Shown one piece after another: positions 840 through 61,527 of a stretch of 64,000 bases of DNA. Position 1 is the stretch's first letter; every line of letters begins with the position of its first letter. This stretch comes from Nereocystis luetkeana (taxonomy: Eukaryota; Sar; Phaeophyceae; Laminariales; Laminariaceae): positions 5,622,739 to 5,686,738 of the forward strand of contig JARUPZ010000013.1 of NCBI GenBank assembly GCA_031213475.1, written 5' to 3'. The position numbers and the translations under genes were made by a program. The notes beneath the pieces were generated by a model. It did not search any database, had not been told where the DNA came from, and worked only from the letters and a program-made list of their open reading frames with translations.

Positions 840-1220
840 TAGTTAACACCTCGGATAGATAGATCAGACAGATCATGATCTATCTATCTATCTACACAGA
901 TCATGATCTATCTATCTATCTACACGTATCGTGATATATCTATCTACACAGGTCATGATCTATCTATTTATCTATCTACAGTAGATGATCTACTTCCTCA
1001 CCTTCCGTTGTGAGAGATTGGGCAGGATCTGTGTAGCAGTAATATTAGTATTAATAATACATATTATACGGCTCCCACCCGGCTACATGAGCTAGATCAT
1101 ACAGATCATGTAGATCATACAAATAATACCAGGTACATATCATGTATATGCTTTGAAACATCTAAATCATCATCAAGTGGGAATGATCTGTCAGATGACC
1201 TGTCCGAGATGTGACTTAAC
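840..1220 (-). repeat. GATC-rich dispersed repeat, near-full copy
   Basis: Minus-strand copy of the GATC family: runs of GATCATGATCTATCTATC, the middle block GGCAGGATCTGTG, then CCCACCCGGCTACATGAGC and GATCATACA repeats. A TACCAGGTA 9-mer sits at 1127-1135. Confidence 0.75.
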
Positions 1221-1354
1221 TAATACTGCTGCAGTGTACCACTAATAACTCAATACATTACGGAACCATTGTCACCCACCCATCCCCCCATACTCGTAGT
1301 CTCCACAGGTACCAGGAATGTACCGAAACATAGCAAGCACTCTTCCCCAGTAAA

Positions 1355-1537
1355 CTAAATCAGGGCTACGCTTGTGCTCTCTTCTTGGGGTCTTGCCTTT
1401 TGCCCCAAACGCCACCCCCGGTGCTCCACCAACACCACCGGCGCCGCCGTCGCCACCGCCGCCGCAGCAGCAGCAGCGGCAGGAGCAGTAGGAGCAGCAG
1501 CCTCCCTCCCGCCCCCATCCCGCCTGCCTCCTGCCTC
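1355..1537 (-). CDS. Gene A, last exon (candidate)
   Basis: A good acceptor (CCAACCGTTTCAG) opens a phase-0 frame: EAGGRRDGGGREAAAPTAP, an Ala run, VVLVEHRGWRLGQKARPQ, EESTSVALI and a TAG stop. All three minus frames here are open because of GC-rich triplets, so the frame is set by phase with the exon at 2147-2503. An upstream donor in AGC|GTAGCC would instead splice to the candidate exon at 99-224. Confidence 0.5.
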   Translation of the reverse strand, partial: EAGGRRDGGGREAAAPTAPAAAAAAAAVATAAPVVLVEHRGWRLGQKARPQEESTSVALI

Positions 1538-2146
1538 CTGAAACGGTTGGCTTGAGGGCGTGACGTGGTACTTGTGCGTCAGAAGAAGATTTCCGTGCTG
1601 CGCGTGGTACGCCTGACGGACGAATGGACGGCATCGACACAACACGTGAGGGAACAGCATATAGGCATGCGGGCGAGCACACGGAAAACAAAAAGGAAAA
1701 AAGTTACCGACTATGTACACTCCTTCCCAAAATTCGGAATGAGAAACAAACCAGAATGGCGACATTTCTGGACCCGGTCGGGTTTGAAAAAAAACGTACC
1801 TGGTTGTACGTTTTTATAATTATCTATACTTGCATTTCAGTACGTGAGTTTACTTGGTTTTAGTATAACCCCCTGGCCCGAAACTCCAGGTAGCCCGGAA
1901 GTACGTAGCAATAGCAAGAACAATTACATGCGTACGGAGGTAGCCACACGAACGACATACGGACGGACGACAAAGGATACGAAGTGCTGTAGATATGTAG
2001 AACCAACAAAAAAAAAGAAGACAACAAAGTCAAGGAGGTGCGGCGCCGAGTTTTACAATCAGGTACCAGGCAGCAACACCCTCGAGGCTGCCAGTATGGA
2101 TTGGTTTCCCCTCCCTCCCTCCCTCCCCCCCCCTCCCCTCCCCGAC

Positions 2147-2503
2147 CTTCAAGGCTCCCAAGATGGACTCGTACTCCGCCTCGTCCTCCGCCGATTCCAT
2201 CTGCAGGGGATGTCGCCCGGGGCCCCCCTCCCCCATCCCGACCCCGCTCAACCTCTCGCTACCGTCCCCCCAATCCAACAACGCCTCCTCCGCCTCCTCC
2301 TCCTCCTCCGCCTCCTCCTCCTCCCCCCCCTCCGCCTCCTCTTCCTCCTGTCCTAGTGTTGCATAAAACTGGTCCCTAACCGCGGCAGCATTGCCGTAAG
2401 CATTACTACTGGCGGCTGCCGCGGCGGCGGCGGCAACAGACGGGTCCTCGTTGTCGAAGAGACCGGGAGGGGCGGGGAGCTTGCTCCGGACTTTTCGCTC
2501 CGC
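2147..2503 (-). CDS. Gene A, acidic exon
   Basis: Exactly 119 codons with phase 0 at both ends, after CACACAG. Order: AERKVRSKLPAPPGLFDNED, an Ala run (GCC/GCG repeats), NAYGNAAAVRDQFYATLGQ, a Glu-rich tract with about 25 acidic residues, ALLDWGDGSERLSGVG, then ESAEDEAEYESILGALK. The Glu and Ala runs come from GAG and GCC repeats. The donor AAG|GTCGGG is weak. An intrinsically disordered, acidic region is likely; function unknown. Confidence 0.6.
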
Positions 2504-4115: not shown

Positions 4116-5127
4116 CCGAAAGTGTTTATACTACGAAGTGACATGTCAGCGACAGCGGTGGTGGGGGGTTGGTCGACTGCATGGTGGCACTACAGTAGTA
4201 CACTCCAAACCTGCAACAGGCTTGATGGTATGATACATAGGTCACACACTTCTGGGCAAGGTAAGGAAAGGTGCCGGTCCGTGGCCCGAAGGAGACCGGC
4301 CATTAACTTGAACGGTCTTCGCCCGCTGTAGCATGGGCAGTAGCTCTACTTCCAACCACACTCTAGCAGCAGCACTGCTACGCTACGATGTCGGTGCTCG
4401 TCGTAGAGTCCGAGCAGTACTGGTGCGCACCACGTACCAGGTATTTCGTACTGCTGTAGAAGAAAGACTGCTCTTCGTGGCCGCTTCCGCCGCCCGCTAC
4501 TCTCGCTCAAACGGCAGCAGATATCACCAAAAGTTAGAGCAGACATAGGGTAGAGGACACTCGCGACTTGGCGCAATGAACGGGCGACTCGCAAATGGCA
4601 AGAGCTAAGCGGTGCAGGGAAACACGATGCCGGGCCTTCCCGTGTACCTTGGTTGAGGGTCTTGGAAAAATGGTGGCCTGTGCTTGCTGTGCTCTGTGCT
4701 GCTTGTTGGAATGTTGAAGATCGACTACTCCTATCAGTAGCGCTGCCTGTATCCCAGGTACCAGGTATACTAGCACTTCCACCTGCCGCAACCAGCTGCT
4801 TGTGGTAGACCGTCAAAATACGAAATTCAACGCGTATTGATAGCAATTTAACAGAAGGAAAAAAAAAGGGGCAAAAAAGGAGAAAATCCACGACCAATCC
4901 TGGAAAACAACCCTTCGAAAATCGGAATAAATAAAAGACCTCTCGAGGACCGACCCTGAAAAAGTAAGTTCACCGTGGGCAATCAAGGGATGATAGTGGC
5001 TGAGAGGTGGGAGAATACGCCGAGCGAGACAGCTCAGCCGGGGTAGCCAAAAGAGAGCAACTTCTACGGGTATGGTATGAAACTGCTGTGCTCTTGGGTA
5101 CGTCTATATCGTTACTGCTTGTGGAGC

Positions 5128-5625: not shown

Positions 5626-6648
5626 CCTTACGAGGACAACTTGCTGTTTTCGTACGTACGTAGACCATCGCCGTCACACCTTTCCCTCATGATGTTTACT
5701 GTAGGATATACGCTAGTGAGTAGTGCGATGATAGAGTCCTACTGCTGTTTGTGTAGTACCTGGTGCTACGTAGTACAGCAGCGGTACAGCAGACGTAGTG
5801 CACTGCCCTGCGCCTTGTATGATATGAATACGTATCAAAAGGGAAACGCACGATGTGCGGTGGGTCGCACGGTACAGCAAGAAGAACGCCCACTCAACCC
5901 ACGAAGCGGCAACCTGCTGACAAGATGAAAGGATGGTCACCACAGGTACCACCAGTACGTACCAGGTATGCTGCAAGCAGTGAACAGCATACACTCGTAC
6001 AGCAGCACGTATGATACATACTTCGTACAACAGCAGTATTACAGCAGTTAGTGCTCTGTGCTCGTACAGCGGCAATCCGCGCTGTGGTACACACCGAGCG
6101 TCGCATGTCGCCGGTTCGGCTTCGAGTCATGCCAGGCAGAGAGAAAGAATTGGTAGCGAAGTCTACAACGCAGCAGCAGCAGCAGCAACAACGACGGAAC
6201 AAGCACAACAACAATAACTGCCACCACACAAGTAACAGTCGTACTACTCTCTACATGCATGTACGGCAGAAAAAAGGCAACGGCGGTCACGTGCTGTAAA
6301 AAACCGCGGCACACGCTCGGAATCAAAGACGAAACTACTGCTGTACGAATGCTACACAGCAGCAGCGGCAGTCGTCTTCGACACGGACTCAATTTGAACA
6401 ATGGCCGCTTTCTTCGAGGCATATATATGGGCAGCCCATCGAGCTCGGCTCGCCCACTATTAATACCTACCCCCGCCAGAGTGCGCCTCTGGTTTCTGCT
6501 CAACGCTTGGCCAGCGGAACAATTGAGGCCTTCTGTTTCATGTCGCAGATGCGGTAGATGTACTTGTACGTACGTACGAAAGTACAAAGCAGGTTGCTGT
6601 CGATTGCCACGTATGCGAGTCTCTCTTGGATCGCGCTTAGGATCTTAC

Positions 6649-7279: not shown

Positions 7280-10200
7280 GTGTGTGGGCCTCCTTGATCT
7301 AATGACCTAGAAGAACGAAACAGCAGGATTCCATCAAACAAAATCACACACTAATAAAACTACGATGGCAGCAGCAGCTCCAGCAGCAGCAGCAGCAGCA
7401 GCACGCATACGGGCATGTGCTGACATGTTTTACATGTTTAGAACTACAGGCGCTGCCCATCGCAGCCGCGCCCTCGGGTAGCGCAGCCACGCCCACGTTA
7501 GTAAGGCTTTTAGATCCACCCCCGCGTACGCGCTAAAGTCTCTCTCTCGCCGGTGCAAGCGGGCCCGTGACTCGGCTTCAAAATCCGGCAGTGCTCTTTC
7601 TGGGTCAGAAAAATAGTCAGGACACGTACTCACGCAGCTACTCATGCCTTGTACTTGTACCACGAACCACGCGTACACTTCCTGCTGTACCCAGCAGGGG
7701 TAGTGGAAGTAATCCTCGTCTGCTGCTGCCTCGTGCGTGCTCGTAGTCTGGTGCTGTACCTGGTATTCACTACAATGCCTGCACAGCCACTTGCAAGCGT
7801 CTGGTACAATAGCAGCATGGTCGTACTGCTCTATACACCTGGTACCTGCCATCATACGCATTTACATATATAACCGGTACCAGGTACCAGGTATTCAATA
7901 CCATGGTCTTCACTGCCTCAGCGGCCCTCTAAATCATAGTGCCGGTATAATGGGCGCCATAGTACCGGCATGATATGCGCCATAGTGCCGGTATGATATG
8001 CGCCATAGTGCCGGTATGATGTGCGCCATAGCGCCGGCATGATATGCGCCATAGTGCCGGCATGATATGCGCCGTAGTGCCGGCATGATGCGCGCCATAG
8101 TGCCGGTATGATACGCGCCAGTCAACAATGCCGGCATTATGGCGGCCACCGGCACTATCAATAGCACACTGACACACTGGTTAATCGTCCATCCCATCTA
8201 TGCCCAGCGGCTCCCCGGGCACGATGGCGGGCAACCGTCACTATTAATACGTGATCGGCACTACAAGACGTACAGAGGGGTCACTACGTACTACAGCAGA
8301 GTAGCTGTAAAAATAGTGCGATACCCCCTGATACCCGGTGATCCTTGATGTATGATATGCACGTACTTGAAACGGCGGTCGCGTGGTGTGCGGCGTGTTA
8401 ATTAACCCTTTTAGGACCGCAGCCCCATTTGGGGGATGAATTACTTGGAATTTGAGTGGTTTGTCCCGAAAACGGGACTGCAGTCCCAAAAGGGCTTGTC
8501 CCGAAAACGGGACTGCAGCCCTAAAAGATCCAAGTAGTTTGTCCTCAAAACGGGACTGCGGTCTGGAAGGGCTGAGAAAACCTTCGATCTGCAGATCATA
8601 TGGATAGGTTATACAAGGCGCTTCGCTCCGCGGGCGGCCTACGCCGCCCGCTACGCTCGCTCTGGAAGGGAAAAAGTACATCAATTTATGCGAAGTGACA
8701 GAGGTCCACGATTGAGTTTAGGTCGTAATTGCAAACCGGCGACTTGATAATGCCAAGAGTCCCGCCGCCATGCTTCAGGAAAAAACAGCTCCGACGCCAG
8801 CTCGAATGCCACATATGCGCTTCGCGTCGCGGATGTCGTACGTACGTACATACCCCAGGTAGGATACTGCTGTCTGTACTTATTTTCTTCTTTCGATATA
8901 CTCTTATGTCTGTACTCGTATGTAGGAAGAAGGCGAAAGCACAGCACGGCACAGCAGCAAAAAAAATGAAAATTAAACCGAAAACTCGGAAAGGAAAAAA
9001 AATCCCCGTCCCCTCTCGTGTAATAATTTTCTGCCTGATTGGAGCACCTTGCACCCGGTCGAAAAGAAGAAAATAAAAAAATCGCACAGAAGAGCTTCTC
9101 TCTCAGCCTCGTACGCTGCCCGCCCCTCTCGCGACCACCTCGCTACCGATTCGGCCCGGGTAAAGCTTTTATCACTCTCTGCCACAATCAGCCCCGTCGT
9201 CCGCCCCGCGTGAAGCCCGGTGCTCACCGTGGCCGTCGTTCGCCAGCTCGATAACGTTGGTGTTCAAACTGCACACCTTCTTCTTTCAACTTCAGCGTGG
9301 TCGCAAAAATAAGCACCGCTTGAATAGTATCTTGCCCTCCTGAACGACCTTTATAAACTCGTACATACTCTATCAACAATCATAAATCGAAGCCAGACAA
9401 AGCCCGTTCATGCATCCCTCGTGTCTCGAGGCACACGCGACGCCTAGGCACGAAAGCGGCGACCGCGCTCCTTGCAACCCCCCCTCTACCCGCCAGCACC
9501 CGCTGACACCCGCGACGGTGCCGGGTCCTCCCGCGATGCCGTGCTCGGAGAACACGCACGCACACGAAACGGAAGAAGAAAAAAGGAAGAAAGGACCGAG
9601 AAAACCAAGAACTGCTGGAAAGGTCCGGCAAGTAATGAAAGGAGGCGGTTTGGAAGTGGGAGCTCTGAGAGGCCAGGGATGCACCAACCGAGCACGCTCA
9701 GGGGTTGTGATCCAAATATGTAGTTCTATAATAGCAGATGAATTCCCGATATTGCATGGCCTTAGCTCACGTTACCGGGGGTGGCCCGTATCATCTGCAG
9801 GATCTATTAACAGTAGCACATATTCCTTTGGGCAGGATGATCTGTACTATGCACAGATCCTGCACAACCTCTTCACAACGGCAAGTCGGGGACTACATTA
9901 TCTACAGATAGGTCATGATCTTCCACATATCGGCAGGTCACCGATCCCACTTCGTGAACTGTATTTTCCAGGGCAGTCAGATCCCCTCTCTGTACGTCTC
10001 GGGCCATCTGGTGCTGTAAGTTCGTGTGCGGAAGCCGTCAAATTTGCATGATCTATCTTCACCCTTTTAGGGCTGCAGTCCCGTTTTGGGGACAAACTAC
10101 TTGGAATTTGAGTGATTTACCCCCAAACGGGAATGCAGTCCTACGAGGGTTAAATAACACGTATTTCCTTGGTTGGATCTGCACTTTACAGACCCTGCAT

Positions 10201-13200: not shown

Positions 13201-16200
13201 TCCTGAGCTGGGGGCAATAGTTGGGCGTGCCGCTTACCGTTACACCCAACCTCCCCCGTCCCCCGTCCCCGCCCCGTCTACGCATGCCTCGTCGGAATCG
13301 CTTGTCGCATATCGTGGCCGGTTCGTTGCTCGTTCCTCTGCAGGCCAGCAGCAGCAGCAGGTGAGGGACGGAGGCAGGGAGAGGGGGTGGGGGGGTGGGG
13401 AAGGGAGGGAGAAAGGAGGGGGGGAGAGAAGGGAGGGAGGGAGAGGAGGTGGGAGAGAGAGGGGGGGGGGGGGGGGAGGGATATATATATATATAAGGCG
13501 GGAGGGAGAGTGAGAGGGGAAGATAGGGGGAGGAAGCGTGCCGGACGGTGCACAAGAGATAAGAGATCGGTTGCCTTTCATTCACCACCGAGCGACGAGT
13601 CGCGTAGTAGTTAATGGGGTAGGGGGGCGGGAGCAAGGAGGGGATACAATGTGTGGGGGTGTTAGGGATGGAAAAGCGGAACGGGGTATAGGAAGGGGGA
13701 GGTAAGCGGCGGGGAAGAAAACCTAACCCTTTGCCAAGTCGTGAAACAGCAGCGGACGTATGCTGTCATCCTAGACGGGGGTACCGGGGGGGACGCCCCG
13801 CCCCTCCCCTCTCTTTTCGTGGTGGCTCCTCCATGTATATTTGTTTGTTTTCATATGCCTTGTTTTAGTCTGTTGTCGTTGTTGCTGTTGATGTCGGTGT
13901 TCTCAGCATTTTTTTTTTCTGATCGCTGAATGATCCTTTTGAACGATCCCTATTTACGGTCGTTGAACGATGGTTTTCAACAGTCTTTTTCTTCAATGAT
14001 CGTATTTTTACGACCCCTTTTTACGATCGTGGAACGATGTTTTACAACGATCCCTTTTGACGAACGTGGTGACGATCGGTTTTTTTTTTTCCGATCGTTG
14101 GGCGATCTTTCTTTTAAACGACCCCTGTTTCCGATCGTTGAACGGTCGCTTCCAACTTATCCATTTTTTCGATCGTCGGAAGATCGCATTCAACCGTTTT
14201 GTTGCACGATCGTGTTCCCTTCGTTGAACGCTTTTTTTTTTTCAACGATCCCTTTTTTTCTCTCGACGATCGTTGGACGATCCTGTTTAATGATCCCTTT
14301 TTCAGATTGTTGAAATATTGTACCTGGTATTTAACGCTCCTATTTTCCGATCGTGCAACGATCTTTTTGACCGACGCCTTTTGACCGATGGTATCTAACA
14401 ATCCCTTTTTCCGGCCGTTGAACGATCCTACGTGTGAATGACCATTCTTCCCTCTCGACAATCGTTGAACGATCCCTTTGTCCGATCGTTGAACGATCCT
14501 TTTTAACGATCTCATTTTCCCTTTTTATGATCGTTGAACGATCTCTTATTCCTAGGTTGAACGATCGTTGGATTTTTTTTTTTTACGATTCCTTTCTGAT
14601 CGATCGTATTTAACGATCCCTTTTTCCGGTCGTTGAACGATTGTTTCTAATTACCCCTTTTTACGACCGTTTTTTTACGACCCTTGATCGTTTTAACGAT
14701 CCCTTTTTGCGATCGTTGAACTATCATTTTCGGCGATAGTTTTTAACGATCCCTTTTGCCGCCTGCCGAACGATCCTTTCTGACATTTTTTTACGATCGT
14801 CGAACGACTGTTTTTAACGATCTTGCTTTTGTTGTATATACTCGTTCGTGAGAGGCAGTGCGCTCGTAAGCGAGGGTGATGGTGAGGCTGGACGTCGCGC
14901 CGGCTGATTGGCTGGCTGTACATATGCATTCTGATTTTGATAACTGTATGTGGCTTGTGGCGATCTCTATGGTCCAAGGAAATATCTATCCGCCCCCGTC
15001 CCCCCCCTGTAACCGTAAACGCCTGACTCCTTCTTTAGAAACCGGCAAAAGGACGTACTGGTTCTTACAACTTCGAGCGACGGCATGCCAGGGAGAAAAG
15101 AAAACACCTTTTGTTCTTGATGGTGGGGGGGGGGTGTTGTTGTTTGTAGTATAGTTTTATCGAGGTTGTTGTTGTCACGCGAGGAAGTGCTGCACGCGTC
15201 CTGCTGGTGCGGTAGCTGCTAGTGACGGTGTTGTGGTTGTTTGGTGTCCTCGCCGCTGCCCCTTGCCCCTGTCGTCGTACGGTTCCTTACCCGTACCATT
15301 GCGCACATTTCAGTGACCCCGACCGCAAGTGCAGATTGTATTGATTGCAATCGCACTCCCTTCCCCAAACCTTCGCGGGGTCTTGCACCCCCCCAATCCG
15401 CCCGCCCGCCCGCCCCGAAAGTCGCGCGGTCGAAGTACCAGAAGAACCTTGCAAAAAGCGTGAGTTTTCGACGAAACCCCCTCGCGCGCAGGTGAACGTC
15501 GTCTTTGAAACGATTCACGTCCTTGAGCAGATCAGCATCTACTGTCCGTAGCCTACTCTCTAGTTCCATCCCCTTCCGTTTGTTTCGAGGCCGTGTAGGA
15601 CTTGCACAGCGCAGATTCAACCAGTAGAAACACACCACCTGGTACAGATCACGCGGATTTTTTCGGGTCCCACCCGGCGACATGAGCTGGATCGTACAGA
15701 TCATACAAATCATACAGATATATGCATGACCTGAAAAATCTAGATCATCATCATACAGTGGGAATGATCTATCTGCTACAGTATGTCCGAGGTGTGATAC
15801 GTCCACGAGGTCTTGCACCCCCCCCTCTCCCCCCCAAAAACACGGCGCGGTGGAAGTATCACACGCAAGAGTAACAAATTCCCCCTTCTAGGGGTGGTGG
15901 CTTACTATCTGAAAATTCTCACTGGAGGAGGGAGCTCAAGTGTCTCTCTCGCCCGGAGTAGGCACTTCGAAAAGGCAGTTTTGTTTGCTCAACCCGGACC
16001 AATTTGTTTTTCTTCGCCCTACGAGGTAGATAGAGTTCCCAAGAATGAATGTTCTATTGATCGGAAAAAGTGCCACATTTGACCAGGGAGTTGTTTATCT
16101 TGGGATATCAACCGGTCAGACCGTTGCATACCTTGGACAGATGATAAAACAGGTCATCGATCGCCACTTCCTGATGATCTAGACCATCCAAGGCAGATAG

Positions 16201-19200: not shown

Positions 19201-21971
19201 ACGTACGTACTGTTGCGACCCGACCGGTGCCGCGATATAGGTATGCCTTTTTAGTAGGACTGGCCACTGACACACTATGTACTGGCAGTAGTAATCTACT
19301 GATTGGCCAGGCCAGTATATTTACCAATAGTTCTCATCTCACGTACGCCCAAAAAACACGCCATGTTACCGTACGGACACCCGCTGAATGTGTTTCGGCA
19401 GGAGAGAGGAGAGACAGTATACTGATCCTTGATTTTGACGACAGTAGAACCACGACTGACTGAGTCAGCCAGTGCCCAGCCCCCCTTTTTAGCCAAACCT
19501 TTTGGTGACTGGTGGGACTACCTGTAAATTGAGGGACTACCCATTAAGGCACCTCTCACCACTGGAGAAGGCATGCCTTGTCGTTGGAACGCCTTTTCAT
19601 GTTTTTTCAACGCTATCATTTGCATACCCACGTAGCCCCTTGGCGTTGATCATTTTGTTTTGTTGGGTTTTGTTCAGCTTTTGGGCGAGCTATAAAATTC
19701 GAAGATGGCAGAAGAAGGAAGGACTGGAGATTTTTCTCGCGGTGAAAGAAAAAGAGCGAGAAAACCAACCGTAGAGGGAAGGGGGGAGGGAGGAGAGCGT
19801 GCTATAGGTTGTCCCCGAATCTGACGTGAGACCATGATAGGAGGGAGAGACAAGAGAAAAGGGTGAAATATGAGAGACGGGAAGCACAACAACTACCAAA
19901 AAAAACGGAAAAGACGAGCAAAAAAAAAGAGAGCTATTTATAGCTCTTCAGGCGAGGCAGCAACCGCCGAAAACTATCGGTGCACCCCTCTGCTGCCCCA
20001 GCAGTCCACTTGCGCATGTAATGTTTTACTGCGTACGGCAATTTGCTTGTTTTTTCCCGCGGCGCCAGGAACTACCCGAAGGGGTGGATTGTGGAGAGGC
20101 CCAACACGGACACCAACAAAGAGGCCGGGACCATCTCCACGGGTGACTATGGCCGAGGCGACTCGGCGGCCCTCTTCGTTGCGCCCAAGTCTCTCCTCGG
20201 GGGCTCCAACCTGGCCAACAAGGAGACCATGGAGGGAGTCGTGAAGAAAGCCCTGTCGCAGAAGGTGCCCCCTCTCCCCCCCTTCCCGCCCGTGTACCGC
20301 CTAACTAATACTTACCGCCGCCACCCCGTGGCGTCCCCGACCGCCCCCCCCCCCCCCCCCCCCCCCCCAAATAGTTTGACGCTGTCATCCATGGGCACGA
20401 AAATCCGCCTCACAAGCGGTTCTTGTGGTTGTGGTAAGATGTAGGTCACCCTTCGTGCGACGCTGTAGACGCTGTCGTTCGTGTGCTGGAAAAGACCGCC
20501 CCGCAAGCGGTGCTTGGCAGGATGCGGGTTATCTCTTCATGCGGCTCTCGCCTAACGCCTCACGGCGCTTCACGCTTGGTGCAATAAGCAATGCATGTCT
20601 GGTCGGTGGAAACCGCCGACGTGCTCCGCCCCGGCATTGTAGGGATGCGAGGCTCTATGGTCATACGACTACGGCCATGCATGGCATAAGCACATACAAT
20701 ACACACCCCGCCTCGTCTTGGTTATCCCTCCTACCCCGTTTCTCCGTTGTCCCATCTTCTCTCTCTGGCCTACTGCCTCTCTCAACCCCTCCCATCTCCC
20801 GGCCCCCCCCCCCCCCCCCCCCCCCACCGCCTACCGCATTTTCTTTGGTGTGCCTCCCGCTCCCAACCCCGCCTCCCGCTTCCCGTCCCCTTCCGTCGGG
20901 GCAGTGTTAGACTGTGCAGACGCGCATACACTGAGGGCACACGTTGTTGTGGTGATGCTTAGCTTGACAACCCGTCCTCCTCTACGTACCGTGTGGTTTT
21001 GTCGCTCTCGACGTTGTGGCCAGCCGCGCGCGGCGGGGAGGGTACTCATTAGTCGCTTGCCTTGTAAGGCATTTCACCATTGACCGCTCTCCCCTTCCGA
21101 GACTGAGCACGGTTCCTTCTCCTAATAGAAACGCCTCCAGCGTTAGGACGCTCGTCACGTTGTTTCCCTATACTACATAAATACCTGGTACGTTTTTTGC
21201 GAATCCCGTCCCCTCACTGTTTGGCCGCCTGTGGCCACCCTCTATCTCCTAGGATAGCGACCGTTTTCTCGCTGCTATCTAGTGCCCCAAATGGAAGCCC
21301 TCCGCTTCGCATTCGGGGTATGATGACCACCCACACACAAGGTGTTTTCTACGTTAAAAAAAAAATCGGTGCTTGACGCTGTAACCAGGCGGGGCTGGGC
21401 CGGGGGGGGGGGGGGGAGGGGGGCGTCCACGCTTGTAAGGAGGAAAGGTTGGCTTGACTGTTTTCCGTACATCAGTTTCCGACCTGCCGGCTGACACAAC
21501 CCGCCGCTTTGGTTGCAGTGGTGTTATCTATCTATCTATCTCTCTATATATACATATACCTTGTGTAGAGTATATATACGAAGTCTGTTCTACATGGCCC
21601 GGCTTCGACATCAAAAGGGTTGATAGTTCACAATAACGCCTCATTCCATATTCGTTTCCGAGAAAATTCCAAGGCGATCGGGCTTGGTTTAGGGTTATAG
21701 GGTGGGGGTAAATCATGTACCAGGTACGGTTCAATTAATCTATATTCTTATTGTTTTTTCGGGGGGGCGGGGGGGGGGGGGGGGGGGGGGTGGAGCATTT
21801 TCGTATTTTCCTTTCCCCTTGGACTCTTCATAGGTCAGTGTCTATGCAGGAACCCTCCTTTTTTGTCTGGGCGGGGGGAGGTGGAGGGGTTGTCCCACCC
21901 GCCGTGCGTCGCGAAGGAGAAGGAAGGAGCGGAACCAAAGGCAGCGACGAAACGTGGGCACAAGAGAGAGA

Positions 21972-22038: not shown

Positions 22039-25000
22039 GCGCACACGATTTCCGAGCTGGGGGGGCGGCGGCACAACATTTGACGTGTTCGTTCTGCCTA
22101 CCGTTCGAGGATGTAGTACGTAGCCGGGCGATATATTAATTCACACTCTCCCCCCCCCCCCCCCCCCCCTCCGCCGCCCCGGCATTGTAGGGATGCGAAG
22201 GTCTATGGTCATACGACTACGCCCATGCATGAGATCGAGTACATAGCCCCTGTCGAGTACACCCCCCCCTCCCCCCCTTCCCACGCTTTTCCCTGGCTTG
22301 CTTTTCCCCTGATGAAATTTGTTTTGCTCTCGGATCGAGCATGCTTTATATATGTTAACCCTATTACGAGGGACCATACTTACAAATATTGTTAGTAAAA
22401 ATGGTTAAATATATACCTGGTAGGTTTTTATGTATACCATAGGTCCTATTAACTATGGTCCCCCGTAATAGCAATATTTGTTGTTCTGTCTAACCTAATT
22501 TTTTCATGTTCGTCTCGTGGAACGCTTGATTCGATTTGATATGTTTTTGTTTTTCGACGTACAGGGTGACAACCAGTACCAAAGCTTCAAGTTGAAGAGC
22601 GTCAAGGAGGGAACGACCGAGTAAGTGCAAGGAGGCGGGCGGCGGCGGGGGGGGGGGGGGGATCCCGTATTTCTGTCTGACTATCCGATTTTGAAGGGGG
22701 GGGGGGGGGGGTCTCCTATCTGACTGCCTGGTTTCAGAGGGGGTAGGGGGGATCCCGTATTTCTATAGTACGACCTCGGTATCCATCCGCCCCGACATTC
22801 ATACTGCAGTAGGAGGGGTATTGTACTTTTTTGTGATTTCCCAGGTTTTGCTATCAGGGGGCTTTGTAGACCCTATGTACTCACCCTAAACTGTTATTTT
22901 TATTGAAGAAAAAATGTACGCGTAACTCGCTGAGCAATCCCATGGGCTACTCCTATGTATGTATATGTATGCTTGGCGAGCGTACAACAAAGATAGTTTT
23001 TTGCAGTCTGACTATGGCGTTCTGCGAACGTAATGACAGCTCGAAGCAGGACAGATGGTTGATTCCCACTGTTGATTATCTAGATATTTTGAGGCAGATA
23101 GATCCCTGATCTGTATGATCTGTATGATCTGTGTGATCTGTATGATCTAGCTCTCAAGGCGTCGGGTGGGAGTGCGCGGTGTGCGAGCTGGGCCAGCCAA
23201 GGCGCCGCTGGAAACGGGTGTTTGGCTATTCCCCGCTCAGTTAATGTGTGTTGTGCTTTCACGTGATTTTCTGACACGGTGTTGTTTATGACCCAACCAA
23301 TGTTTGAGATTCCTTCCCTCCCTTTCTTATATTTTTTGTTTCCCCCCCTCCTCAGGATGTATGATCGATTATACAAAACTCCGAAAATATGAAAAGCGGC
23401 CTTAACTGGTGTGAACAAACGGAAATTCAAGAGGGATGGCTGGTGCGGAATACATTTGCGCGTACGGTCCAACTACGAGGCTAAAAACTTTGGTCGGAAG
23501 TTTGGAAAATTGAGCGGGGCATCGAATAGATAACGCCATTCTCGTGATTGGTTGTTTTTTATATGCAATCGTTTTTTTTTTCATATATTGATGGGTGGCG
23601 AATTGGGCGACGAGATTTTCTTCTATCTTCTCCTTGTGTCTTCAGCGCTGCTGTCTCCACCAAATTTCACCTTGTCGGAAGTGACAAATTCGATACCAAT
23701 TTTGTGTAAAAAAAATGGTGTTGGGTTTGTTTTCGCGGATATCTCGGCGAACTCGAGTCAGAAAAAAAATGCAACGTTAGGATTTTTCAGTCCCTTTTTT
23801 TTTTTGCACAAGCAGTGGCGTGTCGGGGTCAGAACTTCCAATTCGTGTAGCCTGATTTGCAGTGGGTATGCGAGATACGACTCGAGGAAGCTTTCTCCGT
23901 TTTTTTGGGCTGGCCCGGCTCGTAGCATACGTTTTCTCGGTTGGATACGTAACATTAATACGAGTATAGTATAGAGATCCTGCACGGCGCCTCGTAACGG
24001 CAGGTTAGGATCTAGATGATATGTAGATGATCTATCTGTAGATAGATAGATCGTGATATGTCCGAGGTGTGAATGAAGCCTATCGATGAACACACTTCCT
24101 GTGCGGGAATATAATGCCCTCTCAACGTTTGCACCAGACGGCAGGTTAGGATCTAGATGATCTGTAGATATATATCTGTAGATAGATAGGTCGTGATATG
24201 TCCGAGGTTTAAAGCGTCGTGAGGAGTATTGTCTGTGCGGGAATATGATACCCACTCAGGTTAGGATCTACTGCTGTCGCTGATCTATCGGTAGATAGAT
24301 ATGTCGTGATCTGTCCGAGGTGTAAATCGTATTGAGGAACACTTTCTGTCCGGGAATATACAACTCTCGTTCAATGTTTGCACCAGACGGCAGGTCAGGA
24401 TCTAGATTATCTGTAGATGATATATCTGTAGATGATCTGTAGATATATCGTGATCTGTTCGAGGTGCGGGGATCGTATTCCCGACCAGAGTTGTGTGCAG
24501 TGGTGGCTTCTCAGTTGAGGAGCTCCGCCAATGAGAACGCTTTGGGGCCCACTAGGCACCCTCGTCTACCGCACTGTAGGGGTATGCTACCGCACTGTAG
24601 GGGCATGATACCGCACTGTAGGGACATGATGCCGCACTGTAGGGGCATGCTACCGCACTGTAGGGGCATGATGCCCCACTGTAGGGGGGTGATACCGCAC
24701 TGTAGGGGGCATGCTACCGCACTGTAGGGGCATGAAACCGCACTGTAGGGGGTGATACTACACTGCAGAGGCATGCTGCCGCACTATAGAGACATGCTAC
24801 CGCACTGCAGGGGCATGGTATCGCACTGCAGGGGCATGGTATCGCACTGTAGAGGCATGACACCGCACTGTAGAGGCGTGGCTCGGAACTGCTATCCTCC
24901 CGCAATAGGCAACACCTTTCAGGGAGCACATCGTAACTGCGCCCGAGTCAGTACCCATTGCTCAGTACACTATGACATATTCGTAGAGTAGCGAGTTCGC

Positions 25001-28930: not shown

Positions 28931-28932
28931 AC

Positions 28933-29041: not shown

Positions 29042-29109
29042 GTGTGCCTGGTTGTCATGCCCGCTGAGGCTAGAGGTCGTAGAATACATAACTGGTACTA
29101 TGTATATTG

Positions 29110-30290: not shown

Positions 30291-30478
30291 CTAGGCACGT
30301 TTCATGAAAACGTATATACCAGGTATCACGTTGGTCGCGAATCAGAATGTGCTTCGTGTATTCGCAGAGGACGAAACTGGCTGCAAACCTGCTCTACCCC
30401 TACCCGAACAGCTAACTGCTGCTGCAAAAGAGCTACCGTACGTATGATGCGAACTCATATATAGGACATATATATTTG

Positions 30479-33225: not shown

Positions 33226-33395
33226 CTGGTGTGTAAAAAGGCGTACGAGACACCCCGGGTACAAAAAATCAACACTCTTCGAAACTAGGCGTGCTTTCCT
33301 TCAAGAAGACTACCACTACTACTACTACTACAGTAATACATACCAGGTACATACATACCAGTAGTAGCACAACACCCCGGCGGCGACAGATATAC

Positions 33396-34020: not shown

Positions 34021-34640
34021 CCAACACAGCAGCAGTAGTAGGAGTGATGGCTTGGTTCAGACGCATGGTCGGACACAGCAGGGTGCCGTAGGTTTGTTCG
34101 TGTCCGTGTGAGGTATCGTCGCGTCGTCACGCATCGCCCAACCCGTCGCCAGCGTCTCTACATATGCTCGTGGACAGCCTGCGAAGAAGGTTGGACCACA
34201 GGTAGGTACAACCATGTTTCACGCCTTGGTCTGACAAATCGCGTACAAGTATGGGCCCGCCATCAAGACCACCAAATCAACAGTATATATACGTAGGCAA
34301 TACTGATATTCTTATTGGGGCACCATCTTCAAACAACCTCGAGCATCGGCTATAATATAGAATTTAGTGTAGATTTCACACCGCTGAGCTGATTTTCTTA
34401 ACCCAATTTTCTTATTAGAGTTCTTAAAAAAGTGAGCAGTGTGTTCATTATCGGGCACTTTCCTGCTGGCGGGCCTATACTGTATGACCGTGTACGTCAG
34501 GAAGACATGCCTCCGATACCGGTCGAGCTGCTGCACAGATTGAATGCACAACGAGTTCGCCCTCCTCGTACCTGGTAGGTTTTTTGCTCACCCCTTGCGT
34601 GCGTTATCTTCGCCCTTGTTTGCTCCCTCCCCCCTATTAG

Positions 34641-34965: not shown

Positions 34966-34997
34966 GTCAACTCGCCTCGCATTTTACTCTTCGTTGT

Positions 34998-38003: not shown

Positions 38004-38562
38004 CCTCTATTACTTGTAGGTTGGGTGCGTCGGTTGGCAACGACACTGTAAAAAATACCGCTTACTACATGAGTTAGACAACTAGGGTATATTTTTATTT
38101 TATTTTTTGTCGGCAGTCGGTCACAGCTGGTTGTCGAGTTAGACCATTTGTGCGAGGTGAACAATCTTCACTCCGCACAAGTGGGAGTGATCGTATCACG
38201 TACCAGGTAGTGTTTATGGTGAGTCACCCAAGGAGCAGTTATATAGTACTCTCATTGTTGTCTCTGGAAGTTGCTACACCGGAAATTAAACCAACTCATT
38301 GAAGTTGTCACCCATTTGCACGTCCGCCTCGCAAGCGGTTCTCAATAGGATGCAGCTCACCCTTCATGCGACTCGACGGGCAGCTCACGGCGCTTCGCGC
38401 TTCGTGCGAGCGATGTCTGCCTAGTCGGTGAAAACCTGACATGCTCCGTCCTGGCACTGTAGGGATGCGAGGGTCTATGGTCATACGACTTAGGCCATGC
38501 ATGAGATCGAGTACATCTCTCCTATAGGGTACACCCCCCCCCTCCTGGACCGATGTTTCGAG
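38004..38562 (+). repeat. SINE-C, full-length copy with TACCAGGTA insertion
   Basis: TAGGTTGGGTGCGTCGGTTGG, CATGAGTTAGACAACTAGGG, GGTCACAGCTGGTTGTCG, AACCAACTCATTGAAG, CACGGCGCTTCGCGCTTCG, CATGAGATCGAGTACA, TCTCTCCTATAGGGTACACC and poly(C). TATCACGTACCAGGTAGTG at 38196 reads TATCACGTAGTG in the copy at 55235. Confidence 0.88.
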
Positions 38563-42169: not shown

Positions 42170-45100
42170 GTTTGACGAGCTCGCTCCGGGTCAGCCAGAA
42201 CTACTATAGTTCGGCCCAAAGTGAACTATATTCCCTCGTCGTCGCTCGCGTCCCGATATACATGAGTAGCCAACATTTGTCGCTCATGTCGTAGTATTCC
42301 CGTGCGCATTTTCCTCTGTTTGCACCTGCTACCCTATGAATGGATCGCGAGCACAGGAAAGGTGAGGCCCTTTGTTTATTTATGATTGGCGGGGCTCCTC
42401 AAACCGAGCAGCTACCCGATAAGGATATTCGTTATCACCAAATGAGGTGTACCTTATCGTTGGAAGACCGACCGGTAGCCACAACCAACGCACTCTTCGA
42501 TCGGTCCTGACTAGCGTTGTGGGCGAAGCTGGACCCCCCAACCAATTGGACGGCTTCATGAACACAAAAAATTGTGAACATCCTCCCATGACATCGCCTC
42601 CGGCGGCGGCGGGATTGTTTTTTCGTTGTTCGTTCATATAGTGTCAGCAGATGAAACTCCGATCGATTACCTATGTGACACCCACGCACATGCGCTCGAG
42701 GTTGATTCATGCCGCCGAGATAAGAGGGGGAATAAACATCAGTTGACACCAACATCGCCACTCCCACGGTATCTCCTTCCTCCCTCCCTCCCTCCCTCCC
42801 TCCCTCCCTCCCTCCCTCCCTCCCTCCCTCCCTCCCTCCCGCCCGCCTGCTGAAGGTCTGCCAAGGGCGGCCATACGCCCCGGGGCGGCTCCAACGCTAC
42901 CCTAACGGAGCCACCTCTTCTGGGCCTTACCGTGCGGTCTGCTCGTATCGAGGTGGGTTACCTGCCTGCCTACCTGCGTGATTCCTATAAGTGGAGAAAA
43001 TACTGTGCGTGGAGGGCATGCGACGCGTTTATTTGTACCGGTTGTTCGCCTTTACAATACAACGCCCCGGAGTAATTTTGGGAGCCGAGTGCCTTCCCAA
43101 CGAGGAGGATGGGAAGCACACCAAATATCCGTGACTTTAGGAAATATTTCGTCGACACCTTTCCGTAGACGCATCACTCGCCGTTTCCACCCTCCCCGTT
43201 ATCGAGGCAATCAGCTCGGAAAATTCATCCCGGGATGTGTTATCTTGTCACCAGTGTAATGCGGTACCAGGTGTACGACATTGAGCGTACCGAGTAGCGG
43301 GTACGGTCAGTTTCGTTTCGTGGCGCGCTCGTGCATTAGCGGCGTGCAGCCGCGTCTGGCATGGAGTAGTCAGAGCAGCGCGTGCTTGCATGCAGGCTTT
43401 CCTTCGTCCGTGGGGCGCCATCAATACTACTTCTCTCGGGCGCAAGAGACAACGCATCCTCTCGGGGAGAGAGTACGTACAGACGCCGAGCGGTGCGTGT
43501 ACGGAAAGGCATCGACGATATATTTCCAAGGCACTCACACATGATTCTGGTGGTTGTCTGCCCTCCCTTCGGTTTGGAGAAAACTGTCCCGAAAACGCCG
43601 TCTCAGGGCGTGACGTATCTCGCGTCTCATGCTGTATAGTAGCCCTTCTGGGGCTTCAGAGGCTCATAGGACCGGGAAAAAACGACGAAACATATATACC
43701 TATACTTTAGATTCCGTAAGCGTATATAACAGGTACCTGGTACGGTATAGATAATGAGGGGTGCTGCGATACGGGTATGATCACTGTTCAGGGCCCACTG
43801 TTCCTGCTGTCGGCCCCCCTCTACTGGGGAAACACTATATACTCAATATCGTTGGGACTCAAATTGCAGTAGAACTCTTCACAACATCACTCGTTCCTGC
43901 TTTTTTTTTAACCTGTATATGTAGACAGTGGTGTGTGTCTTTTTATCGGGTACTAAAAAAGCGCACACACGCATGATTGTTTCATCAAAACGTAGGGTCA
44001 GTTGTTGTTGTTTGTGGGTGCGAGGGATATGGAGCTTCTTCTTCCTCTCGCAAGCGAGGAACGTCATAAGGCGTTTTCTTGCACCCCCCCCCCTCCCCCT
44101 ACCTCGGCAATAGTCGATGGCATACGTATATATAGCGGTCCAGCGCTGCCGCGTGCGGGGATAATACGTTTGAGGCTCTCTACGATAGAGGTACTGTATC
44201 ACATTTGGGGAAAAAACGTTTCTGAGTCACCACCGCAATCTCACCGGGCACCACCATTTTAGGTCTCAATAGACCCTCGCCGCATATGAGTATGTACCCT
44301 GGGCCCTTCCTTTGTTGGGCTGAATGCGTACGTACACGTACGAGATGCGTGTAGCATCAGTCGTGTTCATGTGCTTTGCTGTGCCCGTTGAATACCTTGG
44401 GGGGGCATAGAAGCCTCAGAATGTTTAGGGTGAACCTCTATCGTAGAACGCTTATTTTGGCACCGATTATTCACTGCTAGGAGTTATGCAATACGCTATT
44501 CTCGCAGCACGGTACTACTGCTGCCCAGTACGCTAAACAACATGCTCCCCTGGAACGAATTTTCGCGGAACGATTCTCTGAATACTAGTGGGAGGCACGC
44601 ACGCGACGCGTTCTACGATAGAGGTAGCACATTTCCGCTGAACTCTTTTATGAATGACGGGGTTCCTTAAACCCAAAATCGTCGGAATGCCAATCTTGCT
44701 TCGAAATATGACGTGTTTGCATACTTAAGCCATGGGGTTATCCATCGGGATGCAATTTGATTTTTGCCGAAGAAAGTTTCAGGGGTGAGGTATGGAGCTC
44801 CTTAAGGGAGGAGCCTCAGAACCTTTAGGGTGAACCTCTGTCGTGGAACGCCTCACTCACAACAACGAAAAAAATTGCGTTACGTGGGCACATCGCTTGG
44901 CGTTTTCACCCTCCCCGCCGTCGTGCAAACCCGGTTGGGATGTTTTTCCAAGGGGATACTCTCCGTACTGCAGATCATCCGCCCAGACGGTTGATGACGC
45001 CGCGACGCTTCACATTTGTTTGCTCGCCGAATCTGGGTCACAAAAATGCTTCACTATCAGCAAGTGAGCGGAGAGGGGAAGGTTTTTTACTAGGGCGTTT

Positions 45101-45972: not shown

Positions 45973-46924
45973 GTAGGTGTGCGGGGTCGGACGGGGCGAC
46001 GCGGCCGAGGACTGAGCCAACCGAGTAATAGAGTTCGATCGCTTGGCTTGTACCTGGTATCGTCAGTTATGCTTGCTTCCTTTGAAACCGAATCAGTATT
46101 TCTCTTTCCGTGGATAAGTCGGGCAGATGGGTTGACGGGGAGAAAAATAAGCAAAGCCTGCTTGCGAAGTTGAACTGATGTGGAAGTTGTGCTGGGAGAT
46201 TGATCCAGTAGTGTTCGTGTGTGTGCCGAATTATTGCCGGATAACGTCTCGAGTTTCACAACTTCTCGTTTCCAGGCGTCGGTGTAGAGCTGTTCCTGGG
46301 TTTTCGTGTTCTGCCGTGCCGTCACACTTCAAAAAAAATAATGCCGGGAACAGATTAGGTGTCACACGGGGTTTGTCGGGCCATGCATTTTCTCCCCGTC
46401 GCAACACTTTATCAAGGCGAAGTTTAACGCAATCGGTTGCACAGGAGTGAGTGATGCGTGACAACACGACGAAACAGCAACAGAAGGCACCAGATAAAGC
46501 TATAACCCCCCGTGTTTCCTTGGTTACAGGCGGGCGTTGCGTCCCGGGCTCGGACACAGTGACAGTTACACCGAGGCGGAGTAAAAGGTCGTCGTTTTCG
46601 TCGTTTTCCTCCTTCTCGTCCCTTCGCCCCCGCTCCCCGAAGCACCGCAAACAATGCAGCCACACACCCCACTCCCGCCTGGTCCGTCACTATTTGCTGA
46701 ACTCGACACCGCTTCCTTTAGTGTACGTATACGATGCTTTAGTCCATATATATTTGTTTATCATTCCCATTCTGTCCCTCTCCCACCACTTTGTCGTATT
46801 TTATCCAGATGGTGACACCAGCGCGGCACGTGCACACCCACGCCTACACACCTCCCGTGACTCCCCCCTCGAGACCCCGCGCGACGCTGGTGTGCGTCCG
46901 GCAGCACCGGGAGCAGCAGCACGG

Positions 46925-51774: not shown

Positions 51775-52239
51775 GTGTCCAAGTGTTTCGAAAGGTTACG
51801 CTTAGGTAGAATAGAGAATGTGTTGGGAAAACTCTATGGAAATATCTCTGGTATCACATACAGCTTGCAAAGAATGTGTTTCGGCGAAAACTCTCGATCT
51901 ACTACTTATGTACCAGGTATGTTGGTATCATCTTTGCGACCTGTCTATAGTGAATAATGAACTTCTACGTTGATCACTCATAAACGCTCCCCCCAAAAAC
52001 AAGATTGAACAAAGATGAACGCAACAAATGAAATGAGGGTGTCATACCCTGGTACCTCCGAACCCACCCGAGTATGACCAAATGTATTATAATTGGTACC
52101 CCTGTTGTCCTGGAGTATGTACCACACTACACTATACCAAGCGCGCAAGTTTTCTAACGTATCAAAGCCTATGGAGGTATTTTCGTGCGCGGCGCATATT
52201 ATTCCACATGACGTTCGTACCTCATATTGTTGGGTTGTT

Positions 52240-56612: not shown

Positions 56613-57253
56613 CTTCCCTTCTCCTTCCCGGTACTTGCCTTCATTTGCATCGCGTAGAGGGCATCTCCACTGCTGCGGATAATTTGCGGACGAGGTCTTC
56701 GTAGAATGAGCTGAGATTACTAACAAGTGAAACAGCCTACGCAGATAGCTTTCTGCTGCAAGGGATACATTCAACATATACACCACAACGCAGATGTTGC
56801 GTGAGTCACTTTCTCGCACCAGGTTGGCAAACATGAAAAACGGGGCCTCTACGAGTATAGACGACCGGTAGTCTGAACTGTACGTATATCATACGAGCAG
56901 GATACATGTGCGCATGTACATACTACGTGCAGGACAGTCAGTCGCCGTTTTTTCGATAACAACAATTTGACATTTGTTTGAGTCTCACAATGAATAACGC
57001 CTGCGCACATGAATCGCGAGGAGTGGAATCATGACAGCATGTAGTAAACGTTTAACGAATATGTACTACCAGGTATGCACGATTTTGTCGCTGTGTACCT
57101 GACCAAGGCACACACTGCGCATATATATCGCACATACACGTGCTTTTACTATGCCATGTACCGGTATCTGGTAATGGACAGAGGCACGACAAAAGTTACC
57201 GATTACGGTATGTTTAGATTTCAACGGTACAAGACTACAGAACACCGGCGGTC

Positions 57254-59362: not shown

Positions 59363-59479
59363 TATTACGGGGGACCATAGCAAATGGGACCAAACATAGT
59401 TTGTGAAAAAAAGCGAAATATATACGTTCCCTTGTCTGTATCGTAGGTCCTATGATATATGATATGGTCCCCCGTAATA
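59363..59479. repeat. MITE-A copy abutting the LINE
   Basis: TATTACGGGGGACCATAG to ATGGTCCCCCGTAATA. No LINE-like sequence resumes on its far side. Confidence 0.85.
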
Positions 59480-60528
59480 CCAAAAAATGTATACCTGATA
59501 CCTGGTCAAATGATGTCACGTAATTTCAGCACACGCGAGGGTATAGGGATGATGATGAGGCTTCGATTCCCCGGTAGGGCAGCGCGACGTCAGTATGCCG
59601 GTATATACATCGTCACGTCCGTCCTTCGACCATCCATCTCGCGAGGGATTTATTTCGAGTCCCAGTAAGCGTGAGCGTTCGAGCGGACAGGGCCTGTGTC
59701 ATCTACCACGTTGGTCGGGAATATAGTACCAGGTAACCGTTATAATTATGATTAAACGTCGATTATTTCTCCGGCCAAGGGGGCGCTTACCAGGGTAGTA
59801 CGAGTATAGGATATCGGGAACGAATCGGGAGAAGTGTGATCAGTCAAATCGAAATTATGGAGATTCAGCCCGTGCGGATTGCGCACGAGTACAACAACAC
59901 AACACGTCGTGGCTGCTGTCCTATGCGACAAAAATAGGAAAGAGCAAGTCGACAAGCCATGAGCGACGGCGTTTGTCGACGACAGTCGACAGCAAAGCAA
60001 CTCTTCTTGTGAGTAAAAAGGGAAAGGGGGTATGTACGGAAGTCGACGAGATCATGGTATCATGATCTGATCTAACGAAATCTATGAAAAAACATGTACA
60101 CTCGTACAGTAGTACGGGGAAACCGAGAAGCTGCTGCGCTACTGCTATTCTGCGCGTACTACAACTATCAGCAGCCATCGATGTCACGCATTAGCGTCGA
60201 GGTCGGATAATTACTGCTGCTGCTACAGTCCGATAGTGGAGGCGCTGCCCACAGCAGAGGCGGGGAGGGAAAGACGTCTCAACAGCGTAGACCAACAACA
60301 GCAGAACACAGAAAACAGCAGCGCAGCAGCCGCAGCAGGATCGTTTTTACGAAGTTACAATCGACATATGCCAGCTGCGAGTTCGGCCGATTTGTGAGTC
60401 GATGACGGTAACTAGATTTGCAAGCTGCAAGCTGCGTCTAACGTCTTGCACGTCACGTCGGCCGCGCCTCGCGTCGTGCCTCGTACCACATTGGGTCATT
60501 TCTGATTTCGCCGCATTTTCATATTTTC
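59480..60528. other. Intergenic, no gene supported
   Basis: Probable promoter side of the WHEP-domain gene. Contains TACCAGGTA at 59727, several CAGCAG runs near 60290-60340 and no clear repeat copies. Confidence 0.45.
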
Positions 60529-61176
60529 ATGATAGGCTTTACAAGATATGCATGGCGTTCTCCATTCGGGGAAGCCATGGCTTGGTCTTGTCGGCCGCGG
60601 CCAGGCTGCCGCCTGCCGTGCGTATTTGCTGCCGTTCGTGCTCGGCTGGGGTACGCAAACTCTCCTTCTATGCTTTTGTCCTCTCGGTACGGTTGCCGAG
60701 CCAGGCGGCGGTCGTTGGCGGCGGGGATGGCGCTGGCTTTGGCTGGCCGTGCGGCGGGTCTCATCCCAGCACTCCATCCTACAACAACCACGGCAGCAGC
60801 CGTGCGGTCGTCGTCTCGTCAACTGATGAAAGCTACTGCTGCCACCACCACCCCCTCCACCACCACCGCGCCTTTGCAAGCATCGCTTAGAAGGAGGCGT
60901 TGGGGTGCTGCCACCAAGGAGTTGCGTGCCTCGCTCTTGAGCGGTACTAGTGGTGGTTGTGGTGGTGGTAGAGCTAGCGTGAGTTGGCCAGCTAGCGGTG
61001 GGGCAAGAATCATGAGCCCCTCTAGGCCCGGCGCCGCTCTGTGCTCTGCCAAGAGCACGTACGAGATGTCGGCAGGAGACCTCGCGCTGGAAGCACAGAT
61101 CAAGACAAAGGGGGACGCTATCAGAGACCTGAAGGCTGGCGGAGCTTCTAAGGACGACCTTAAGCCGCACATCGAG
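60529..61176 (+). CDS. First exon of a WHEP-domain protein, probably an aminoacyl-tRNA synthetase (partial)
   Basis: The frame from ATG 60529 reaches a GAG|GTGTGT donor at 61176, phase 0. Its last 35 residues, LALEAQIKTKGDAIRDLKAG then GASKDDLKPHIE, match the helix-turn-helix of WHEP-TRS domains (pattern LxxxIxxQGdxVRxLKaxKA). These domains are appended to eukaryotic Glu/Pro, Met, Trp, Gly or His tRNA synthetases and bind RNA or partner proteins. Before it lie about 100-170 residues rich in Arg, Ser, Ala and Thr with few acids, which could be a mitochondrial or plastid presequence. Possible starts are 60529, 60670 (MLLSSRYGCRARRRS) and 60727. The catalytic exons must lie beyond 61177, probably outside the window. 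Confidence 0.72.
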
Positions 61177-61527
61177 GTGTGTTTTGAATGCTGCAAGACA
61201 TTTGCTGTTGCTATGCAAGTAGTCTACTCTGCTTCGGGGTTGTCTACCCTGCTGCTACTCCCCTCGTAATAAAGGATGTAACTGGTACCAGGTACGGCTT
61301 AAAACGTACACGCTCACGAGTCCCCATCCATCGGGGTGTGTCGTTGACTTGAAGTGCCGGAGGTGTTGCAAGTTGAAAAGGGGGAATACAGACGTCCCTA
61401 GCATCATGCATAGGATGGGCCTCTGTGAGGTTCGCTGGTGATTTACCGATCGATGCCGCTGCTAATGGTGTTGTACCGCTGCTGTATGTACTGCGCGGGT
61501 GCTTTGAAAATTCAGAGGAAGTGCGGG

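Follow-up and report, generated by a model that had tools for sequence, protein, structure and literature searches.

A 64,000-nucleotide stretch of the Nereocystis luetkeana genome (contig JARUPZ010000013.1, positions 5,622,739 to 5,686,738; hereafter the window) contains 28 exact matches to the nine-base word TACCWGGTA, in which W is A or T (17 read TACCAGGTA and 11 TACCTGGTA). We propose that this word is probably an excision footprint, the scar that repair leaves where a cut-and-paste DNA transposon has been cut out; the element would target TA and duplicate it on insertion. A footprint of a TA-targeting transposon had been suggested in an initial annotation of the window, and the suggestion is well supported by a gain of sequence relative to empty sister copies, a palindromic target preference in the flanks, and rarer variant scars that fit two ends starting with CCAG. 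What is new here is the number of scars, their uniformity and the missing parent; the excision repair itself is an ordinary kind of event.

Abundance of TACCWGGTA

The initial annotation reported at least 28 occurrences of the word in the window against about 0.5 expected by chance. The exact count is 28, and an order-3 Markov model gives an expectation of 0.43; the 22 coordinates listed there are all right, as is the site at 30570 named in its text, and five further sites lie at 21718, 29354, 31813, 33341 and 34569. The central base of TACCNGGTA is A or T in 28 of 28 window occurrences. Genome-wide (465,085,209 bases in 1,987 contigs), TACCWGGTA was found 182,395 times versus 1,744 times for the same pattern reversed, which served as the control, a frequency far from background.

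A 200-kb sample, drawn from 20 contigs at 10 kb apiece, contains 77 copies (0 to 9 per 10 kb); therefore, the window is not special and the feature is genome-wide. Among words of the form TA-X-TA in the window and sample together (264 kb), CCWGG is the most enriched five-base X (105 vs. 2.3 expected), followed by the GGACC pair (15 vs. 0.7 expected). The enrichment of GGACC between TAs (TAGGTCCTA) possibly derives from MITE-A, a family of miniature inverted-repeat transposable elements (MITEs) with copies in the window at 22391-22472, 27517-27630, 28932-29045, 33910-34020, 34857-34966 and elsewhere.

Insertion of seven bases at TA

We aligned the 105 sites of the window and sample to other repeat copies, with and without the 7 bp. 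The empty form was preferred in 122 of 131 alignments and the full form in 9, with usable sister copies at 15 of the 105 sites; these alignments are not independent, as most compare MITE-A with MITE-A, and some are poor. A usable sister alignment is lacking for 19 of the 28 window copies. Some window copies are thus insertions by direct comparison, and for others we infer insertion from the flank logo described below. A short insertion between duplicated target bases, empty in homologues, was found for the minority of sites with alignable sisters, and the TA target-site duplication is read from the scars rather than from an element.

For the MITE-A insertion at 22414, the alignment comprises 31 copies (22414 included): three have seven extra bases at one TA and 28 are empty, although two adjacent hits in L014 may be one tandem copy. 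The empty state is the majority state, contrary to the alternative that the motif is ancestral and was lost from the copies without it. Besides window position 22414, the filled copies are L026 7095-7006 and L014 180-93, in which the first TA reads AA. Because the W of the L014 copy is in the orientation opposite to that of the others, at least two of the three filled copies probably arose independently at a single hot spot, AAATATA-TA. At 38201, in a copy of the short interspersed element family SINE-C, all 9 sister alignments favour an empty site, and in 7 of these the gap is exactly 7 bases. Four comparisons had originally been offered as proof of insertion: those at 22414, 30570 and 38201 stand as 7-bp gains, and that at 31250 fails, with a difference of 9 bp. 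The claim that CCWGG enters at TA with TA doubled holds in alignable repeats, where the gain is exactly 7 bp at TA.

Target preference in the flanks

The half-site before TA (flank logo of 210 half-sites, 34 tandem-like dropped) is W(-7) A(-6). T(-4) A(-3) Y(-2) R(-1). Its four most biased positions give chi-square values (3 degrees of freedom) of 66, 56, 53 and 38, and the composition is near background from -9 outward. Combining both sides gives the palindromic, AT-rich WANTAYR-TA-YRTANTW, a preference spanning 7 bp on each side that appears similar to the TA targets of Tc1-type transposases. In the available text of the respective reports, the Tc1-like element ZB prefers palindromic ATATATAT around TA (PMC7913693), and the pogo element Passer prefers AAGTACTT (PMC9976928).

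Variant scars and the proposed element ends

The flank matrix was applied to words outside its building set, for which the flank-positive background in 264 kb is 0.12-0.18. Flank-positive sites were over-represented for CCGG (6/12, p 0.002), CCAG (10/27, p 0.001) and CCATGG (2/2, p 0.02), and flanks were background-like for CCSGG (1/11), CCAC (0/12), CCCG (0/12) and CC (7/75). Three-base mariner-type scars (CCA/TGG) were rejected, as their 40 copies have background flanks (4/40 positive). The words TACAGTA/TACTGTA, present 101 times in 264 kb with background flanks, might include scars of CAG-ended pogo elements.

A strong left half-site followed by CCWGG without a following TA occurs 1,047 times in the genome versus 132 times for the reversed pattern. 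Among 100 such places listed, 68 read CCAGGGT and 3 CCTGGGT (counted by eye); among 20 that were fetched, seven of the eight with CCAGGGT continue CCAGGGTA. Because no sequence is common beyond CCAGGGTA, the CCAGGGT places look like 8-bp scars rather than element ends. Orphan TACCWGG words in the sample also share no sequence beyond the word, and several resemble decayed scars.

Counting bases kept from a left end 5'-CCAG and a right end CTGG-3', the variants can be written as (2,2) for CCGG, (3,2) or (2,3) for CCWGG and (3,3) for CCATGG, with longer sums of (4,2) for CCAGGG and (4,3) for CCAGTGG, and (4,0) or (3,1) for CCAG. Since the supported variants fit such sums, we infer that both element ends begin with CCAG; ends of this kind would also explain the bias of A over T in CCAGGG, which is not expected with CCTG ends. 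The variants fix only these first four end bases, so overhangs of 4 and 5 nucleotides (nt) both fit, including a CCAGG model. Longer junctions at L067, L068 and L050 (C1:14721934, C2:2048756 and C1:2118600), such as TACCAGGCGCCAGGTA, look scar-like with filler bases.

Proposed mechanism

Given these ends, we propose an element of the form 5'-CCAG...CTGG-3' whose transposase would cut a few bases inside each end and leave the donor flanks with 3' overhangs of 4 or 5 nt. Overhangs of four nucleotides, CCAG, would anneal around a central A.A mismatch (C:G, A.A, G:C), and gap filling with mismatch repair would then produce CC(A/T)GG between two TAs; a 5-nt CCAGG overhang would pair likewise, with two more pairs. 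Other resections would yield CCGG, CCAG/CTGG, CCAGGG/CCCTGG and CCATGG. The ends of Sleeping Beauty begin with CAG, its CAG/CTG overhangs anneal around a central A.A mismatch, and its scar is the mismatch-centred TAC(A/T)GTA. In the portion of a review available to us, the scar of Sleeping Beauty equals the overhang (PMC7827188), and the mechanism proposed here would extend that rule. Each jump would leave a scar and the element number would stay low, so that scars accumulate; because there would be one scar per jump, a high ratio of scars to elements is unsurprising.

Age and load of the scars

In the sample, about 45 single-substitution scars were counted versus 105 intact ones (neighbours corrected by flanks), and a substitution is present in about 30% of the scars that can be recognised. 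The mean scar age is about 4.4% substitutions per site, with ages mixed, and the scars appear to decay as neutral insertions would. The genome has an estimated 25 million TAs, about 0.7% of which carry a scar. At 7 bp each, the scars add about 1.3 Mb, and any one of them would shift the reading frame if it fell in a coding exon.

Tandem scars

The tandem TACCWGGTACCWGGTA occurs 15,917 times genome-wide versus 2 times in the control, and tandems are found at 4.4% of outer TAs, a rate 6.1-fold that of the average TA. Of the 99 gaps between the first 100 places, 8 have the exact 7-bp spacing, against an expectation of 0.0; other short spacings are mildly in excess. As a target, the scar itself scores close to neutral in the flank matrix (0.48 and -0.41). 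Among 59 plus-strand tandems listed, 40 have both copies in the same orientation, 14 read A then T and 5 T then A; the excess of A-then-T over T-then-A runs in the direction of the target preference.

Re-insertion of the element at its own TA, as first proposed for the tandem at 7878, is consistent with the tandem excess but leaves part of the roughly 6-fold figure unexplained. The same-orientation excess and the 6-fold excess together call for a second process, for which slippage and immediate re-insertion are candidates. As a separate clue, the exact-tandem excess bears on re-insertion at a freshly repaired site. A search of viral contigs for the tandem scar returned the double form in 9 stretches and the triple form in 0, which was taken as chance.

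Search for the parent element

Transposases were sought by six-frame translation without introns, so that an absence is weak evidence. The mariner domain Transposase_1 (PF01359) gave 0 matches among 3 candidates, but its control responded in 0 of 14 genomes, so that this negative is uninformative. Among families that are present, DDE_1 (pogo) gave 28 matches. Inverted ends TA-CAGTACCGGCC lie about 2.2 kb apart in L039 and L042, with a related end in L045; the three belong to a second pogo family (L036, L039, L040, L041, L042, L043 and L045) whose copies are about 78-94% identical and have internal stops in 4 of 7 cases. For the pogo pair L029/L031, one end was placed at TA-CAGTGGGGGGCCC from where the copies start to match. 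These two copies (C1:8320630 and C1:12363930) are 99.7-100% identical over shared stretches and apparently recent, and about 1.3 kb of L029 is missing from L031. The pogo loci were rejected as the parent on the ends read in L039, L042, L045 and L029/L031, which begin CAGTACCGG or CAGTGGGGG and not CCAG.

DDE_Tnp_4 (PIF/Harbinger-ISL2EU) gave 57 matches in the genome, and the top seven have the same score and a 294-aa open frame and lie on six contigs (including C10:1013897, C12:5719694 and C13:273115; L069 is one of the seven). Because these copies share one score, they probably represent a recently active element. The ends of the L069 element could not be placed, and the sample held no informative copies. 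A TACCAGGTA scar is present in this fetched stretch, at L069:2156.

Several inverted-repeat candidates were also set aside. Pairs between TAs in L012, L017 and L018 have CCG or CCC ends and cannot yield CCWGG; the ends of L025:1164-2536 share little; and L004:2589-2688 has CCAGTGC ends, but its flanks are far below background and it lies inside a simple GTACCGTTGCC-like repeat. A 165-bp stretch at L017:3781-3945 is possibly a separate MITE; its inverted ends, CCCCGACTTAAGAGAG, are nearly perfect and bordered by TA.

Weighing the proposed excision footprint and its alternatives

Several observations count against an excision footprint. The 264 kb yielded no recognisable intact element ending in CCWGG or in CCAG...CTGG. 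From this zero, a rough Poisson bound puts the genome-wide total at no more than about 5,300 intact elements, provided that their inverted-repeat ends can be recognised and that the sampled stretches contain them in full. The Tc1 domain DDE_3 (PF13358) gave 0 matches among 30 candidates in the genome, with a control that responded in 3 of 14 genomes. At 5 bp plus TA, the scar exceeds the 0-4 bp given for ZB, Sleeping Beauty and Passer in the available text of two reports (PMC7913693, PMC9976928). At individual sites, 31250 differs from its sisters by 7 bp plus an extra TA, the differences of 21182 and 29354 from theirs are not plain 7-bp gains, and 1127 and 14321 sit in repeats too diverged for judgement. 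Among the variants, CCAGGG has weak flanks in 264 kb (3/10 positive, p 0.15) and owes its support to the genome search; CCAGTGG, or CCACTGG on the opposite strand, is known from one flank-positive site; some of the longer junctions, L067 and L068 among them, cannot be written as a plain sum of two ends; and the CCSGG form TACCSGGTA exceeds its genome control (10,882 vs. 1,899), though its flanks resemble background. Finally, exact tandems are about six times commoner than random re-insertion predicts, and the same-orientation class is in excess (p 0.004).

A version of the excision footprint that names the parent would derive the scars from a transposase family present in the genome, either DDE_Tnp_4 or a pogo subfamily with other ends. 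The same-score, full-length DDE_Tnp_4 copies suggest recent activity and pogo elements also use TA; against this, the pogo ends that were read are not CCAG and those of DDE_Tnp_4 L069 could not be placed, and we consider this assignment unlikely.

A more radical proposal, in our judgement quite unlikely, is that a TA-specific machinery normally leaves or inserts only a 5-7-bp piece, by bodiless insertion or by programmed removal in every generation, and prefers its own scar, so that the genome is steadily lengthened by 7-bp units. In one specific form, a transposase-like enzyme would place a self-contained piece of 5-7 bp, or two joined processed ends, at TA with no full element at most sites. 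The uniform product, the excess of exact tandems and the lack of an intact parent in 264 kb would suit such a micro-insertion, but CCGG, CCAG, CCAGGG and CCATGG point to imprecise joining of two resected ends rather than to copies of a fixed 5-mer, and one-for-one cut-and-paste already accounts for few elements and many scars. We know of no micro-insertion system of this kind and regard it as very unlikely; the minimal insertion system given as a second option in the initial annotation is not needed to account for the scars.

Programmed excision is an extremely improbable explanation. It would place many parents in the germline or another life stage and remove them from the sequenced cells, as with the internal eliminated sequences (IESs) of ciliates; in Paramecium, excision of TA-bounded IESs is massive and precise and leaves one TA. 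The very large number of scars, their single dominant form and the absence of a parent in 264 kb are in keeping with this, and excision at TA would be genome-wide in both cases. However, the scars here look inherited and decayed: the substituted fraction implies many ages rather than fresh formation each generation, scars occur in individual copies of dispersed repeats (as in 3 of 31 at the MITE-A site), and known TA-bounded IES excision is precise. Scarcely credible, lastly, is a protein-binding, recombination or methylation motif that selection or gene conversion has spread, or one that is ancestral and has disappeared from some copies: strong over-representation and a near-palindromic shape would fit, and CCWGG is the target of bacterial Dcm methylation, but the 7 bp are present or absent as a unit at TA with the empty state in the majority, the 7-bp flank preference on each side resembles a transposition target, CCSGG has background flanks, and we are aware of nothing that would give a binding or methylation motif such flanks. 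No observation made here favours the methylation link that the initial annotation raised as speculative.

Relation to known transposons

Tc1-like elements (Sleeping Beauty, ZB), as far as the available text describes them, share with the excision footprint proposed here a TA target with its duplication, a palindromic AT-rich target, and a scar formed by overhang bases. Sleeping Beauty differs in having CAG ends, versus the CCAG suggested here, and the six-frame search of the present genome gave no DDE_3 match. Its overhang is 3 nt in the review text available (PMC7827188), versus the 4 or 5 nt proposed here. We do not claim membership in Tc1/mariner, since the target and duplication fit but no such transposase was found and the scar exceeds the animal range; the parent would work like such an element.

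Scars of plant mariner and Stowaway elements (Osmar5, Ppmar2, Stowaway MITEs) keep 1-4 nt of the ends between TAs, and in the Triticeae later elements sit within older scars, in the accessible parts of two studies (PMC1925063, PMC9632168). Elements inside older scars are what the tandems here would need, and 5 bp plus TA falls within the Triticeae Stowaway range of 2-4 plus 1-2 bp given there. Stowaway differs in its end sequence, with scars such as TACTCC...AGTA, and the plant scars described are diverse, whereas one form dominates here. The pogo element Passer also targets TA in a short palindrome, with scars of 0-4 bp in the available text (PMC9976928); the target palindrome is another one, and the pogo ends read in the present genome are not CCAG.

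A literature search, including the two 9-letter words themselves, returned no description of a TACCWGGTA scar. The footprint studies cited here, in the parts available, address few scars at once, in reporter assays or in one intron (PMC9976928, PMC7913693, PMC1925063, PMC9632168). About 180,000 stereotyped scars would instead record past jumps in their frequency, target preference, break repair and scar decay. With the parent not found, the case is also a test of whether an element can disappear after leaving many more scars than copies.

Sites and other features of the window

Table 1 Proposed footprint sites in the window. Every row rests on an exact pattern match; a further basis is given where alignments exist.
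Position	Strand	Feature	Basis
1127..1135	+	TACCAGGTA footprint	sisters too diverged to judge; four alignments fit empty site better
4435..4443	+	TACCAGGTA footprint	match
4759..4767	+	TACCAGGTA footprint	CCCAGG precedes; possible decayed tandem
5960..5968	+	TACCAGGTA footprint	match
7757..7765	-	TACCTGGTA footprint	match
7878..7893	+	tandem pair TACCAGGTACCAGGTA (7878 and 7885)	match
14321..14329	-	TACCTGGTA footprint in diverged local repeat array	weak sister alignments, cannot be judged
21182..21190	-	TACCTGGTA	sisters (12640-12810, L014) have AA, not TA, at junction
21718..21726	+	TACCAGGTA footprint	match
22414..22422	-	TACCTGGTA inserted in MITE-A at AAATATA-TA	31-copy alignment
27902..27910	-	TACCTGGTA footprint	match
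29354..29362	+	TACCAGGTA	sister 30127-30278 reads CACCGG; not simple 7-bp gain
30317..30325	+	TACCAGGTA footprint	match
30570..30578	+	TACCAGGTA inserted in MITE-A	7-bp gain vs. sisters
31250..31258	-	TACCTGGTA in MITE-A	sisters shorter by 9 bp (7 plus TA)
31813..31821	-	TACCTGGTA footprint	match
31882..31901	.	two footprints 11 bp apart (31882 TACCTGGTA, 31893 TACCAGGTA)	match
33341..33349	+	TACCAGGTA footprint	single weak sister alignment fits empty site
34569..34577	-	TACCTGGTA footprint	match
38201..38209	+	TACCAGGTA inserted in SINE-C (CACG-TA-GTG)	sister alignments
43734..43742	-	TACCTGGTA footprint	match
46051..46059	-	TACCTGGTA footprint	match
51911..51919	+	TACCAGGTA footprint	match
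57067..57075	+	TACCAGGTA footprint	match
59727..59735	+	TACCAGGTA footprint	match
61286..61294	+	TACCAGGTA footprint	match

The window also contains an inverted pair at 40628-41036, with 80-nt arms that are 90% complementary and 249 nt between them. A reverse transcriptase of the long interspersed element (LINE) type, matching RVT_1 in two adjacent frames, lies on the minus strand at 57738-59519 and is probably a broken copy.

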